Positions 25,193 through 30,758 of a stretch of DNA of 64,000 nt are shown piece by piece. A model generated the notes under the pieces. That model saw only the letters and a list, made by a program, of their open reading frames with translations. It had not been told where the DNA came from and did not search any database. Location: the NCBI GenBank assembly GCA_029261715.1, contig JAJDAT010000014.1, positions 248,001 to 312,000 of the forward strand, written 5' to 3'. The translations under genes and the position numbers were made by a program. Positions within the stretch are counted from its first letter, which is position 1, and each line of letters begins with the position of its first letter. The DNA is from Nitrospinia bacterium. GTDB taxonomy: Bacteria; Nitrospinota; Nitrospinia; Nitrospinales; JAJDAT01.

Positions 25193-25543
25193 ATTAAAAG
25201 TTTAGTTTGGGTTGGCGATTCCAAGAAAAGATTAAAGGCGTTTCCACAGCAAGTACAAAAGGATATAGGGTATGCGCTTCAATTTGCCCAAGTTGAGGAT
25301 GTGCATCCATCCGCAAAGCATTTGAAGGGTTTTAAACCGGCAGTTATGGAAATTGTAGCGGACCATAAAACAAATACCTTTAGAGCGGTTTATACAACGA
25401 AAATTGAGGAAATGGTTTATGTCCTGCATTGTTTTCAGAAGAAATCAAAGACAGGTATCAAAACGCCAAAAAAAGAAATAGACATTATCGAAGCGCGTTT
25501 GAAACAAGCCGTTGCAATAGATAAGGAGAGAAAAAATGGCTAA
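25193..25543 (+). CDS. higB: HigB-type toxin (Gp49-like, RelE superfamily) with apparent AUU start
   Basis: This is a probable ribosome-dependent mRNA interferase. The family N-terminus normally reads KPLVWLGDSRKRLRAFP; here KSLVWVGDSKKRLKAFP is encoded at 25196-25246. VREI-like VMEIVADH and FRAVYTTKIEEMVYVLHCFQKK follow, all typical of the Gp49-like family. No ATG, GTG or TTG precedes the conserved N-terminus in frame; the upstream stop is at 25163. The only placed candidate is ATT at 25193, with GAGGG and TAGGA just before it, giving 116 residues. A GTG at 25301 would remove the first 36 residues and half the fold. The gene overlaps higA by 8 nt. Confidence 0.8.
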   Translation: MKSLVWVGDSKKRLKAFPQQVQKDIGYALQFAQVEDVHPSAKHLKGFKPAVMEIVADHKTNTFRAVYTTKIEEMVYVLHCFQKKSKTGIKTPKKEIDIIEARLKQAVAIDKERKNG

Positions 25544-25865
25544 AAACAAAGACTATGAAGAAAGTTCCGGCAACGTTTTTAAAGACTTGGGACTTTCAAA
25601 TGCCGATGAAGAATTTTTAAAAGCAAATCTCGCCATCACTATCCATCGTATTATTAAAAAACGCGGCCTGACTCAACAGCAAGCCGCAGAGCTTTTAGGC
25701 GTGGATCAACCGGAAGTTTCCAAACTTAAAAAAGGATTGTATTCCCGGTTTAAAGTGGAGAGGCTTTTTCAATTCTTAAATAAACTAGGTCGCAGAATTG
25801 AAATTAAGGTAAGAAAACCTAAGAAGGATGAACCTCTGCAAGCTTTTCAAGCTGTAGGGATATAA
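25536..25865 (+). CDS. higA: HigA-type antitoxin, XRE helix-turn-helix
   Basis: The 109-residue protein neutralises the preceding toxin and should repress the shared promoter. A helix-turn-helix of the Cro/XRE class is at about residues 35-75: IHRIIKKRGLTQQQAAELLG, VDQPEVSKLKKG. The C-terminal RRIEIKVRKPKK is typical of HigA proteins paired with Gp49-like toxins. A ribosome-binding site GGAGAG lies inside the toxin gene. Order toxin-then-antitoxin fits HigBA systems. Confidence 0.9.
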   Translation: MAKNKDYEESSGNVFKDLGLSNADEEFLKANLAITIHRIIKKRGLTQQQAAELLGVDQPEVSKLKKGLYSRFKVERLFQFLNKLGRRIEIKVRKPKKDEPLQAFQAVGI

Positions 25866-26109: not shown

Positions 26110-28518
26110 TTAAACATTATCTTCACCATGTCGATGTTTTCGTAAGGTAATATCCTCATCAGCACGCTTCTGCTCGTAATCAATGCTCTTTTCGAGACTA
26201 TCTTTATAGTTTTGAGCAAAAATTCGTATGCTAGCATTCTCATCTTGCAGCCAAGGCTTAATTTCCTCAATCTTTTGTTTATAAGCCTCTACCAAGCCGT
26301 ATTCACCTGTTACCACACCTATACTTTGTAGAATGATACTAAGCTCATTTTCGAGATCACTACCATCAGGCAATATCTTGATTATCTCTTTACACACTTC
26401 GTGAATAACAGGGTCTCCTTCATAATTTCTGAGTATGGCCATTACAAAGAGTAGGTCATTCTCTTTTCTGGACTGGATAACCGAAAGAAGTTTTTGTTGG
26501 AATTCAAGAGGGAAATCCGGGAAAATATTTTTTAGAAACTTCGCGCCGCGATAAATAAATAAACCGTAATTACCATCATATATATTCAGCACAGCATCAA
26601 CTGCCAGCTCTGGCTGCTTTGACAAGGGTTCTGCCAGCTTCTGAAATCTATACGGAACGGCATCATATTTGTCTGTACGTTCTTCGTCCTTTTCTTTTAA
26701 AAGACGCTTACAGAAAAAATGAAAAATCAAGTCCGGAAACAACTTTGCTGTCACACATAATACATATTCAGCTCGATAATCAATCTCGTTCAACCAGAAT
26801 AAGTTGTCTAGGATTACTTCATGGTCGGCACCATCCAGACTCATAAGGATGTCACTGAGTTGTTTTCGGAACCAGAAACCATGAAGCCAACCCGTATTTC
26901 TATGCGTCGTTAGTTCTTCCAACGCAGGTATTAAGAACTTTTTGATAAGGTACTTATTTTCCGCGTTAAATCGCGCTGACACCGACGAAACTATTTGGTT
27001 CAATGTATTAAAATCATGTGTAGCTTTAGCTTTCTCCTGTATTTTATTCAATAACTCCTCATTTACTTCGCGGGAATACTCAAAGAATCTGGCAAGGCTG
27101 AATAAATATTTCCCTTCATCGCACCAACGGTTAATCAAATCATATGCATCTTCATGATTGGTTTCTGCTATGCCACAAAGTATCGCTGTAATGAACTTCT
27201 CTAACAGTTCCGCGCTTTCATTTAGAATTTGCAAGGCTACTTTTGGCGATGTCCTGCCTAGATTCTCCAAAAACTTTCCAAAGTAAGGGAATGTGGCCAA
27301 ATCATTAGACTTTATGCCTGCATAGCTAATTATTCGTGTTTTCCACTCATCATAAGTTTCTGTAGTAACGCTTTCCGCGAACTTGAGTGCTTCTGCTTCT
27401 CGGTATGTCCTCTCACGTTCATAATCATCCCTTTCTTTTCCACTCTCCTCCCAATCATGAAAAATACTTTCAAACCCAATAAGGATACGGAACTTTTGGT
27501 ATTCAACATCATCGTATAGTGCATCACGTATAGATAAGGCTACCTCTCTAATTTTTTCATTCAACGTCCCTTTGTGGTAAAGCATCCAATAAGCATCATG
27601 CTCAATTTTCTGCTTCAACTGCATATCTGCATCAGCTAATGCAATGCGTTTCATAAATTCTGCCACAGTGATAGTATTTTCAATCACCATGGCCAATACA
27701 TCATCCCCATGCTCTATCCTTGGGGTATGTGTTGCCGTTTGCATCGAATTTAAAACAGATTTCTTTTGTTCAACATCTACAACCAGATCAAAGAGGCTCT
27801 CTAGCTCCTCCAATGCTTTCTTACGTATATTTTTTACACCTTCTTTTGCGGGTACGGCTCCTGTCCGCCATGTAAATGTTTTATAAGTCGAGTTAGTTCC
27901 GGATATGGTCGGCGATAGTATCTGGTTGCAAGCAGCGATAATGGCGTCAAAGTATTTTTTTCTTTTCACATTATCAAAGGAGACAATCTTCTCCAGAACT
28001 TTTTCTTGTGGTTCCCATGCAAGCCCCGACCATTCTCCACCGTCGCCATAGAATATATCTAGATGGTACCCCGCAAACTTCTCAATTCCCTTCTTTGCTT
28101 GTTTAGCGACATTTTCATTTTCATGGCAAGAATATCCAAAAAATATATCAAGAATTTTTGATGGCTTGTGATAGCGGATATGCTCTAAAACCTCAATGGC
28201 TTTGACCTTTAGTGTGGAATTATTTTGAAATTCACGAATACGTTCTACGGGATACCCCGGAACATCCTGATAAGTAATTTCAAACGTTTCCAGCCTTTCT
28301 AGAAAATCACCAATTGCGACAACTGTTTCCTCATGAACTCTATAAGCTATAGTGTCCAAAAGTTCCAATTGATCAGAGAGATGTTCGTATTGAGTTTCAC
28401 TTTTAAGTGCAACTAAAATTTTGGCGCATTCTTGTTGAACGGCCTGCAATGCCTTTGAGCCTGGCTCGGCCTTTTTGGAAAGATGAAAAAGAAAACTCTT
28501 CTTTTGTTTGGTATCCAT
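26110..28518 (-). CDS. 802-residue all-helical protein of unknown function, PIN-operon partner
   Basis: I do not recognise this family. The protein is soluble, rich in Glu/Lys/Leu and made of short helices in a HEAT/ARM-like rhythm from end to end (for example KAIEVLEHIRYHKPSKILDI and PVIHEVCKEIIKILPDGSDL). It has no signal peptide, membrane segment, Walker motif or obvious catalytic cluster. A highly charged DYERERTYREAEAL stretch lies at about 363-376. It starts 2 nt after the stop of the PIN-like gene, with AGGTG as ribosome-binding site, so the two are tightly coupled. A scaffold, sensor or inhibitor for the nuclease is the natural inference. Location in the accessory block next to higBA suggests defence or conflict, but nothing in the sequence proves it. 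Confidence 0.75.
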   Translation of the reverse strand: MDTKQKKSFLFHLSKKAEPGSKALQAVQQECAKILVALKSETQYEHLSDQLELLDTIAYRVHEETVVAIGDFLERLETFEITYQDVPGYPVERIREFQNNSTLKVKAIEVLEHIRYHKPSKILDIFFGYSCHENENVAKQAKKGIEKFAGYHLDIFYGDGGEWSGLAWEPQEKVLEKIVSFDNVKRKKYFDAIIAACNQILSPTISGTNSTYKTFTWRTGAVPAKEGVKNIRKKALEELESLFDLVVDVEQKKSVLNSMQTATHTPRIEHGDDVLAMVIENTITVAEFMKRIALADADMQLKQKIEHDAYWMLYHKGTLNEKIREVALSIRDALYDDVEYQKFRILIGFESIFHDWEESGKERDDYERERTYREAEALKFAESVTTETYDEWKTRIISYAGIKSNDLATFPYFGKFLENLGRTSPKVALQILNESAELLEKFITAILCGIAETNHEDAYDLINRWCDEGKYLFSLARFFEYSREVNEELLNKIQEKAKATHDFNTLNQIVSSVSARFNAENKYLIKKFLIPALEELTTHRNTGWLHGFWFRKQLSDILMSLDGADHEVILDNLFWLNEIDYRAEYVLCVTAKLFPDLIFHFFCKRLLKEKDEERTDKYDAVPYRFQKLAEPLSKQPELAVDAVLNIYDGNYGLFIYRGAKFLKNIFPDFPLEFQQKLLSVIQSRKENDLLFVMAILRNYEGDPVIHEVCKEIIKILPDGSDLENELSIILQSIGVVTGEYGLVEAYKQKIEEIKPWLQDENASIRIFAQNYKDSLEKSIDYEQKRADEDITLRKHRHGEDNV

Positions 28519-28520
28519 CG

Positions 28521-29519
28521 CTACACCTGCCCCAACATTTCAATTATTTCATTCGTGAGCCGGTCTGCGGCGGCATTACAAATTTCTTTATTTCCGACGA
28601 TATAATGACTTCCTGTATCTCTAATATATGGTTCTGGCTTAACGGAAAGAATGGTCGCGCATGCTTCGATTAATTTACGGTCAAAACCTTGGGATTCGAC
28701 GACCTCAATGAGCGATTCGTGAGAAGGGGAATCGAGGGCAACAATAAAACCAAGCAATCTGAGTTTAATTTCTCTTTCAGCGGCATTGACCGACTTTGTT
28801 AACAACAAATCAAGTGGTGACAAGCCCTCTTCAGATATTGTTGACTGTTCTGATTTCTCTCTTTCGTCTATGAGTACAGTTTCTGACTCTGGTATTTCCC
28901 CAGCTTCTTCTTTTTCTAAAATTTCAACCAAACCTAATACAGTAACCTTCTCAAAGCCAAGCTTTTCCAAAGCATCGAAAAGGGTATTGTCTTCTCCTAT
29001 ACAAAACTTATTACCAATATTTTCGTATAACTCATCGGCTAATGCATCTCGCGCGCACTCAAATATCCAAGCATCAGGAATATCTTTTTTATTTTTCACC
29101 TGTTTAAATGGAGAATTCCCATGAAAATAAGCTTCCCAAGTTTGCCCTATATGCCCTTCTCTTGGTTTATAAACGTTAATATTGTTTTCTTTCACGAATT
29201 CATGAATTCCAGTTTTCGAGTAATTTTCTATTTCCTCATTGTTAGGGAATTTATTATGCATATCAGCTTCCAACAATCCCTTGGCAATATAATTATTGGC
29301 AGGAAGATAAATAAGATTTCGGGTCAAATCCTGAATTACCTTAGTAAGTTGAGATACCTTTTGGGTTCGCCATTCTTCCAAACAAATATGAGATGTGCAG
29401 AGATTAATTTTTTTACCTTTGGAGTACTCGAATAGTTTTTGGTACGCAGCATCTTTAGATTTGTAGTCTTTAAAAAACCGTGTGTCTAAAAAGACAAACG
29501 TGTTATGAATCAACGTCAT
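28521..29519 (-). CDS. PIN-like (DUF4935-type) nuclease domain protein
   Basis: The 332-residue protein has an N-terminal PIN-like domain (about 1-185) expected to cleave RNA with Mg2+. Putative acidic metal ligands are Asp12 in VFLDTRFF, Glu48/Glu49 in HICLEEWRTQ, Asp149 in KKDIPDAWIF (Asp146 is nearby) and Asp177 in IGEDNTLFDAL. The spacing and the LEEW and PDA(W) motifs match DUF4935-type PIN proteins, as I recall them. Residues 195-230 are acidic and likely disordered. A helical C-terminal domain (about 235-332) is not recognised. It is promoter-proximal to the 802-residue protein. The pair could be a toxin-antitoxin-like or antiphage module. Confidence 0.7.
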   Translation of the reverse strand: MTLIHNTFVFLDTRFFKDYKSKDAAYQKLFEYSKGKKINLCTSHICLEEWRTQKVSQLTKVIQDLTRNLIYLPANNYIAKGLLEADMHNKFPNNEEIENYSKTGIHEFVKENNINVYKPREGHIGQTWEAYFHGNSPFKQVKNKKDIPDAWIFECARDALADELYENIGNKFCIGEDNTLFDALEKLGFEKVTVLGLVEILEKEEAGEIPESETVLIDEREKSEQSTISEEGLSPLDLLLTKSVNAAEREIKLRLLGFIVALDSPSHESLIEVVESQGFDRKLIEACATILSVKPEPYIRDTGSHYIVGNKEICNAAADRLTNEIIEMLGQV

Positions 29520-29620
29520 AGCTATTCACCAATGATATAAATATACAAGTTTGTCAGATTTACTATCTAAGGACATTTTATGAGCAAACCCCATTTATAA
29601 AATCTATCAAAATCCATTAA

Positions 29621-29670
29621 TGTCCGCTTTGGGTTGCGCCGACCAGTTGAAGTCGCGGCCAAAAGCGGTC
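29621..29670. repeat. Imperfect inverted element with CGGCCAAAAGCGGTC, right of PIN operon
   Basis: GTCCGCTTTGGGT (29622-29634) and GGCCAAAAGCGGTC (29657-29670) form an imperfect inverted repeat. The right arm is a direct copy of 26081-26095. The left arm GTCCGCTTTGGGT recurs at 30728-30740 inside the start of the next gene. Confidence 0.65.
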
Positions 29671-29720
29671 GTTCCGCACAGCACAAGGATTGCTCTTGCC
29701 AAACTAACCTGATGGGTATA

Positions 29721-30758
29721 CTAGATCTTAAATAGAAATTGAAACATTACTCCCGCAACCGAAAGAATAAAACATGCAAAAGAAGAAAACCCTAAAACCC
29801 AAGGCCATATAGGTGTCCCCACTCTTTTCTTATCAATTTCTATTAAATCTTGAAAGGAAATCTTATCCTTGTAATATCCAGATGAATCCCTTACCCAGCC
29901 GGTGAGCAAACCATTTAAATCTATTAAAAGTGTAGCTATTGGTCCTCCAGCAAAAATTACACCAAATAAAAATAAGCAAAATGTGTACTTAAGGTTTGGA
30001 TAGTCAGGTGCACCTTTAGTAGTGCCCCAATAACCTAATAATGCAACAGCTCCACCAGCATTTGTTAGAAAAAGATATTTTGTTGCCTGTGTTGTGTAAT
30101 CTTGAACCAACCTATTTAAATATCCCCACCTTTCATCAATATATTTAATGTTAGTTTCTCTTACTTCTTGGGTTGTCTCGGAATATTTCAAACGAAAATG
30201 TTTTACAATAATCCCCTCAGCTTCCTCCCCAGAAAAAGTTCCAGCCTTAAATAAGGCGGTAGCTAACCCATCTACCGCCTTCCAATTTTTTTCTGTAGAT
30301 AAAAAATCTTTCATAATTTTAGCATTGTGTTCAACAACTGACTCTTGCCCAGGATTTAATTTCTTAGATATGTTCGCCACATCTGAATAAGGAGAAATTT
30401 TTTCTTTTTGGGTATCAAAATTTTCTAAATCAAAAATCTTTTCTGCCTCACAGCCAGCTAAACAAATTAAAAAATGTTTACGGTAACGCTCATCATCATA
30501 TTTAGTAAAACTTCGAGACTTAATTAACTCAAAATCAGATTCATAAAAGAAATATTTGTAGTCAAATAGGTCATAATTATCTTCATCTAAATCAATAGAA
30601 ACATTTCCGGTAATTTTTCCACCCATTAGGAAAATTGCCACGCAAATACCCGCTTGGTTATAAGCAAGCATTTCTCTTTTTTTAAAATCTGTCATAACTG
30701 TTTTATGATGGTCTTTCCATATTAAAGGTCCGCTTTGGGTCGGAAACAGCTCTATCAA
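29721..30758 (-). CDS. Membrane protein with degenerate M41 (FtsH-type) peptidase-like domain
   Basis: The N-terminal 190 residues resemble the FtsH protease domain without the AAA part. REMLAYNQAGICVAIF matches the helix REAVAYHEAGHAVVA. LICLAGCEAEKIF matches the LGGRAAE region and YSDVANISKKL the third-ligand helix. The zinc motif HEAGH is replaced by NQAGI (Asn34 to Ile38), so it should not be a metalloprotease. A C-terminal membrane module with three hydrophobic segments follows: LTNAGGAVALLGYW, a long helix at about 265-290 and WVLGFSSFACFILSV. The start is TTG at 30758 (GGATAGGG upstream) or ATG at 30695; the longer form runs through a dispersed repeat. Function unknown; possibly a signalling or effector membrane protein of the accessory block. 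Confidence 0.65.
   Translation of the reverse strand: MIELFPTQSGPLIWKDHHKTVMTDFKKREMLAYNQAGICVAIFLMGGKITGNVSIDLDEDNYDLFDYKYFFYESDFELIKSRSFTKYDDERYRKHFLICLAGCEAEKIFDLENFDTQKEKISPYSDVANISKKLNPGQESVVEHNAKIMKDFLSTEKNWKAVDGLATALFKAGTFSGEEAEGIIVKHFRLKYSETTQEVRETNIKYIDERWGYLNRLVQDYTTQATKYLFLTNAGGAVALLGYWGTTKGAPDYPNLKYTFCLFLFGVIFAGGPIATLLIDLNGLLTGWVRDSSGYYKDKISFQDLIEIDKKRVGTPIWPWVLGFSSFACFILSVAGVMFQFLFKI

Follow-up and report, generated by a model that had tools for sequence, protein, structure and literature searches.

A PIN nuclease gene adjoining a HEAT-solenoid gene in a Nitrospinia bacterium: probable member of a modular immunity family with exchangeable effectors

The window analysed here, a stretch of 64,000 nucleotides from a Nitrospinia bacterium (contig JAJDAT010000014.1, positions 248,001 to 312,000), harbors an operon of two genes that encode a PIN_12 nuclease and a large HEAT-solenoid protein (Table 1). 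Coordinates, strand, protein lengths and spacing had already been given in a preliminary description made from the letters of the DNA, and all of them turned out to be exact. The gap between both genes is so short that translational coupling is likely. The HigBA-type pair noted in the same description is indeed present, with a Gp49-like toxin (Pfam, E = 2e-17) and an HTH_37 antitoxin (E = 6e-26), and it is the sole conflict-type neighbor. The other close neighbors are surface-polysaccharide and radical-SAM genes, while neither a defence island nor an integrase was seen around the operon within the window. The GC content of the operon does not deviate from that of its surroundings, and a scan for promoters and terminators yielded fewer sites than shuffled sequences did. 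Upstream of the PIN gene, the otherwise AT-rich leader contains a GC-rich patch (29620-29690) with short inverted repeats (CGCTTT/AAAGCG); this patch folds no better than shuffles and occurs as a single copy in the window. Further upstream, 200 nt from the operon and on the same strand, a gene (29721-30758, minus strand) encodes a 345-aa protein with hydrophobic stretches near its C-terminus. It has no Pfam match and is not conserved as a neighbor of the other operon copies.

Table 1. Features of the operon and its toxin-antitoxin neighbor (positions within the window).
Feature	Position	Strand	Properties	Basis
PIN_12 nuclease gene (first gene, effector)	28521-29519	minus	332 aa, 37.9 kDa, pI 5.0	
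Winged-helix domain of the PIN protein	28524-28808	minus	residues 238-332	hmmsearch, AF2, Foldseek
Spacer between PIN gene stop and HEAT gene ATG	28519-28520	minus	2 nt	sequence
Large HEAT-solenoid gene (second gene)	26110-28518	minus	802 aa, 93.2 kDa, pI 5.3	
HigBA-type toxin-antitoxin pair	25301-25865	plus	neighbor, outside the system	Pfam

The first gene product had been called PIN-like, which is borne out by a match to PF16289 (PIN_12) of 67.1 bits at a curated cutoff of 32 (E = 3e-18). The protein starts with the PIN_12 domain (residues ~7-205), which a disordered linker (~209-233) connects to a C-terminal winged helix that had been missed before. In an alignment of eight homologues, Glu49, Asp149, Glu154, and Asp177 are invariant, while position 12 is occupied by either Asp or Glu. 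Thus, the acidic quartet proposed earlier stands with Asp12, Glu49, Asp149, and Asp177, whereas its alternative member Glu48 is not conserved. In an AlphaFold2 model calculated from a 7-row alignment (pLDDT 73), the PIN domain resembles VapC-like PIN proteins, a likeness which at Foldseek E-values of 0.06-0.2 is suggestive only. Searches against the PADLOC models at E-values up to 10 gave no match for the PIN protein.

The second gene product had been described as HEAT-like and devoid of known motifs, and we arrive at the same result. Its AlphaFold2 model, built from an 18-row alignment, predicts an all-helical HEAT solenoid of about 40 helices and a single hairpin at residues 204-221 (pLDDT 89.1). 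The best structural matches are CAND1, SF3B1, and importin-beta (Foldseek, E ~1e-5), while TM-scores to solved HEAT proteins are low because the curvature of the solenoid differs. Neither Pfam and NCBIfam, nor PADLOC (E up to 10), nor the PDB sequences provided a match, no housekeeping family was hit, and the protein contains no Walker A motif and no membrane segment. HEAT solenoids are generic scaffolds. Judged from the model, the large protein looks like a scaffold or sensor, as nothing in it appears catalytic.

The association of these two genes is real. If all kinds of first genes are counted, we found 11 distinct two-gene loci, and in 11 of 11 the genes abut in constant order, -23 to +8 nt apart. 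A Sedimentisphaerales MAG (Planctomycetota) comprises the PIN and HEAT pair with 61% and 63% identity, respectively; since such homologues occur there in the same order, the pair does not stand together by chance. The pair is also found in Legionella gresilensis, in L. adelaidensis, in another Legionellales genome (L054), on a plasmid of the cyanobacterium Pseudanabaena, and on two viral or prophage contigs. The reverse search points in the same direction: in 143 Legionellales genomes the PIN protein has four full-length relatives, and the large gene accompanies each of them. The linkage on which the earlier reading depended is thus conserved. Two further proteins from these genomes demonstrate that PIN_12 exists outside the system as well, namely a PIN remnant truncated to 153 aa that lies without a partner between unrelated genes (L063:6491-6952), and a PIN_12 protein that lacks both the winged helix and the partner (L064).

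The first gene is not always a PIN nuclease. At locus L044 it encodes a SIR2 protein (PF13289, SIR2_2, E = 6e-28) with intact TTNYD and HG motifs, which matches the PADLOC models of ThsA, LmuA, and DSR and, among PDB entries, ThsA and DSR2. At L012 the first gene product comprises 280 aa and was judged by eye to be restriction-endonuclease-like, while the helical protein of 268 aa at L081 is of unassigned family and was, again only by eye, likened to HEPN/DUF4145; neither likeness has profile or PDB support. What most of the first gene products have in common is their C-terminus. In the PIN protein this tail, a winged helix modelled at residues 246-330, follows the order helix-helix-helix-hairpin-helix and resembles the winged-helix-B (WHB) domains of cullins, with a TMt of up to 0.77 and an rmsd of about 2, at Foldseek E-values none of which reaches 0.001. 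In profile searches (hmmsearch) this tail recurs at the C-terminus of the L012 protein (E = 4e-9, L012 itself being left out of the model) and of the L081 protein (E = 4e-4). In the SIR2 protein of L044 it was detected weakly (E = 0.08-0.34), and one of 200 shuffles equalled its score.

Besides the two-gene forms, the large protein occurs in fusions. At 15 loci it is fused behind a RelA/SpoT alarmone synthetase; these synthetases look intact, with no variation at the R-x-K, Asp, and Glu motif residues among five aligned sequences. PADLOC provided only a weak match for these fusions, to the candidate PDC-S33, over the synthetase part. One of these, a three-part gene on the Rhizobium rhizogenes plasmid pC6.5d (L007:6653-10585), encodes 1310 aa and combines the RelA/SpoT synthetase and the HEAT solenoid with a poly-gamma-glutamate hydrolase domain; it is followed by a DSR2-like SIR2 gene, a metallophosphoesterase gene and a caspase-family gene. 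At two more loci a STAND-like NTPase protein with a Walker A motif has the solenoid as its C-terminal part (L009 from Aulosira, E = 1e-35; L023, E = 2e-10). The tail profile was not detected in the fused RelA/SpoT forms. Since the tail is present on separate effectors and undetected in the fused RelA forms, which would need no dock, comparison of the sequences suggests that it might serve as a docking or adaptor domain, a kind of plug carried by separate effectors.

In a maximum likelihood tree of the large protein the two-gene forms cluster (support 100/99), while the RelA forms are found across one branch. Within the two-gene cluster, the SIR2 form stands beside a PIN pair, with support that is not strong (88/87), and the restriction-like form stands apart. 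From this placement it follows that effectors were exchanged at least twice within the two-gene group. Across this modular family it is the large protein, and not the nuclease, that stays constant, an aspect that had escaped the preliminary description.

Family members are rare and patchy and lie near integrases and defence genes. In the phylum of the Nitrospinia bacterium itself, one of 77 genomes contains the family. A sample of 399 Pseudomonadota yielded two genuine members, one of them the seed genome, and among 392 Planctomycetota genomes only the seed and one weak STAND form were found. Six of 143 Legionellales genomes were positive, as were 8 of 251 in the order of genome G473, while the family turned up in 4 of 289 and 3 of 270 genomes of two class samples, the seed and a fragment being among the three. 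A PriA-like protein (G390) and a stretch of 45 residues (G1710) were set aside as chance matches or fragments. Annotated phage genomes contained no phage-borne homologues, and a three-dimensional search of viral proteins returned generic repeats only. Scanning viral contigs gave nothing with the PIN alignment alone and only the known loci again with the RelA alignment.

This distribution bears on the idea of an RNA-processing or RNA-decay complex, in which the PIN nuclease and a HEAT scaffold would fulfill a housekeeping role comparable to that of eukaryotic SMG6 or Nmd4. Both of these proteins are among the Foldseek matches of the PIN model, and eukaryotic RNA complexes commonly contain HEAT scaffolds. 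However, a system found in one of 77 genomes of its own phylum and only sporadically elsewhere does not fit a housekeeping role, which we reject on this count. Furthermore, the effectors are replaced by SIR2 and RelA/SpoT enzymes, neither of which processes RNA transcripts, and the neighborhoods are mobile. We therefore consider this explanation highly improbable.

To describe the neighborhoods, we compared 79 proteins encoded no more than 6 kb from a family member with a matched control set of equal size, taken from arbitrary regions of the same genomes. The neighbors comprise seven phage integrases and, as defence-type proteins, AbiEi, AbiEii, a DSR2-like protein (E = 2e-125), MzaE, AIPR, a cytosine methylase, Mrr, and NACHT. 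In total, 81 PADLOC families were matched among the neighbors against 19 in the control, the latter mostly of housekeeping type; these figures are descriptive, as one methyltransferase can match many models. Some loci deserve mention in their own right. At L081 (4267-12039) the M and S genes of a type I restriction system immediately precede the two-gene system. At L051 (3352-8530) a gene for an NACHT-like NTPase of 1174 aa and a RelA-HEAT fusion gene share one strand, the former ending 31 nt before the latter. Two Legionella species carry the operon at the same place beside rpoD-dnaG (L003:8984-13604 and L005:7998-12686), which suggests a preferred insertion site; in L005 an integrase gene is located just upstream.

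These observations allow the pair to be weighed against a classical toxin-antitoxin module, in which the PIN protein would be the toxin, the large protein a plain neutralising antitoxin, and the function maintenance of a genetic element rather than immunity. The PIN fold as in VapC, the two coupled genes next to HigBA and the plasmid-borne location of some relatives would all be in line with such a module. However, we know of no precedent for an HEAT antitoxin of 802 aa, and the toxin gene comes first. In addition, the partner stays constant while the toxins vary, it is fused in cis in the RelA and STAND forms, and the neighborhoods comprise defence genes. A plain toxin-antitoxin pair thus appears unlikely to us, albeit the least so among the alternatives. 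The preliminary description had seen in a nuclease with a large helical partner the build of defence and toxin-antitoxin modules, and this notion has gained strength from the swapping of effectors (SIR2, RelA/SpoT, STAND) and from the defence and mobile neighbors.

If compared to known systems, VapBC shares the PIN nuclease. VapB, in contrast, is a small DNA-binding antitoxin, while the partner studied here is a helical protein of 802 aa that matches no antitoxin family, and PIN_12 is a separate PIN family. The border between toxin-antitoxin systems and immunity is soft in any case: CapRel, a fused toxin-antitoxin system, acts as a sensor whose antitoxin part recognises a phage capsid protein directly (PMC9712102). 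The fused relatives resemble CapRel and other toxSAS in that a RelA/SpoT synthetase and a regulatory part belong to one polypeptide. In contrast, their regulatory part is an HEAT solenoid of about 800 aa and not a small antitoxin-like domain, and the window operon has no RelA/SpoT synthetase, which is present only in the fused relatives.

In its architecture the system resembles DSR1 and DSR2. DSR2 consists of SIR2, an HTH domain with a hairpin, and HEAT repeats that grip the phage tail tube protein and thereby turn the enzyme on (PMC11263360). Both systems thus share an effector, an HTH or winged helix with hairpin, and a long HEAT region; in addition, L044 has a SIR2 of DSR/ThsA type, and a true DSR2-like gene adjoins L007. 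In contrast, the window system is split into two genes and its effector is, as usually in the split form, a PIN nuclease, SIR2 being found only in L044. The large protein matches no PADLOC DSR model, and DSR2 is outside its top 50 structural matches. Descent from a split DSR2 was considered and rejected, as profile alignments of the helical part and the winged helix with a DSR2-like protein stayed within the range of shuffles. With Avs and other STAND proteins, L009 and L023 share a solenoid behind a P-loop NTPase, which is the sensor position in STAND proteins, whereas the window system has no NTPase. Lamassu and Thoeris likewise have swappable or SIR2 effectors (LmuA, ThsA), to which L044 corresponds, but the window system lacks an SMC-like LmuB and a TIR ThsB and has an HEAT solenoid as partner instead. 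A PIN-based defence system of two genes, both of which are needed, is DS-5 from DefensePredictor (PMC13092281); its partner, however, contains a DUF5830 and an AcrIF4-like domain, while DS-3 is a single protein. Consequently, the window system is a PIN_12 nuclease with an HEAT solenoid that by sequence is neither DSR, VapBC, CapRel nor STAND, while its working mode may, by analogy, resemble that of DSR or CapRel.

The reading we hold to be likely is that of a two-component sensor-effector immunity module of abortive-infection type, with an interchangeable effector that the HEAT protein would both hold back and set off through the docked winged helix. What the analysis shows is the anatomy, the linkage, the common tail, the effector swaps and the neighborhoods described above. 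With a constant solenoid and changing killing enzymes, the simplest account would have the solenoid recognise some cue and control the enzyme, and both this constancy across effectors and the analogy to known systems lead us to infer a sensor role for the large protein. The docking of the effector, its restraint before triggering, the recognition of an invader and RNA as the PIN target are inferred likewise. One might envision the solenoid holding the PIN protein by its winged-helix tail, in a complex that would be kept inactive. If the solenoid met a cue from an invader, most likely a phage or plasmid protein, the PIN nuclease could be freed or rearranged. PIN proteins usually cut tRNA, rRNA or mRNA. 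The released nuclease would accordingly be expected to cut cellular RNA, and growth would stop before the invader multiplies. In the relatives, the same solenoid may drive SIR2, leading to loss of NAD+, or RelA/SpoT enzymes, leading to alarmone production or tRNA modification, and may form the C-terminal part of a STAND switch.

The same mechanism could alternatively serve in inter-bacterial conflict or against plasmids, with an incoming plasmid or the product of a competitor as trigger. Several relatives on plasmids and integrative elements would be compatible with that. However, anti-phage genes ride such elements as well, and there is no specific signal either way; we give this variant a slim chance.

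A literature search, with subscription journals and bioRxiv mostly outside its coverage, found no description of the family. The sensor-effector module proposed above is probably an undescribed mix-and-match anti-virus system with the large protein as its sensor, and chances are fair that this modular family merits a class of its own. Somewhat more cautiously, we favor the wider view of an undescribed modular immunity class, in which one family of HEAT-solenoid sensors would serve several killing enzymes of unrelated origin, among them PIN RNases, SIR2 NADases, alarmone synthetases and restriction-like proteins. Effectors encoded separately would connect by a winged-helix plug of universal use, others by direct fusion, and the same sensors would also provide the recognition part of STAND proteins. 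If this holds true, the protein of 800 aa would be a plug-in sensor, a single scaffold for recognition that is connected to five or more kinds of effectors, which would explain how effectors are traded among defence systems. It would also add a sensor family common to STAND proteins and stand-alone systems. Unannotated systems might then be found by their sensor or their winged-helix plug instead of their enzyme, and moving plugs between effectors would offer a natural engineering test.
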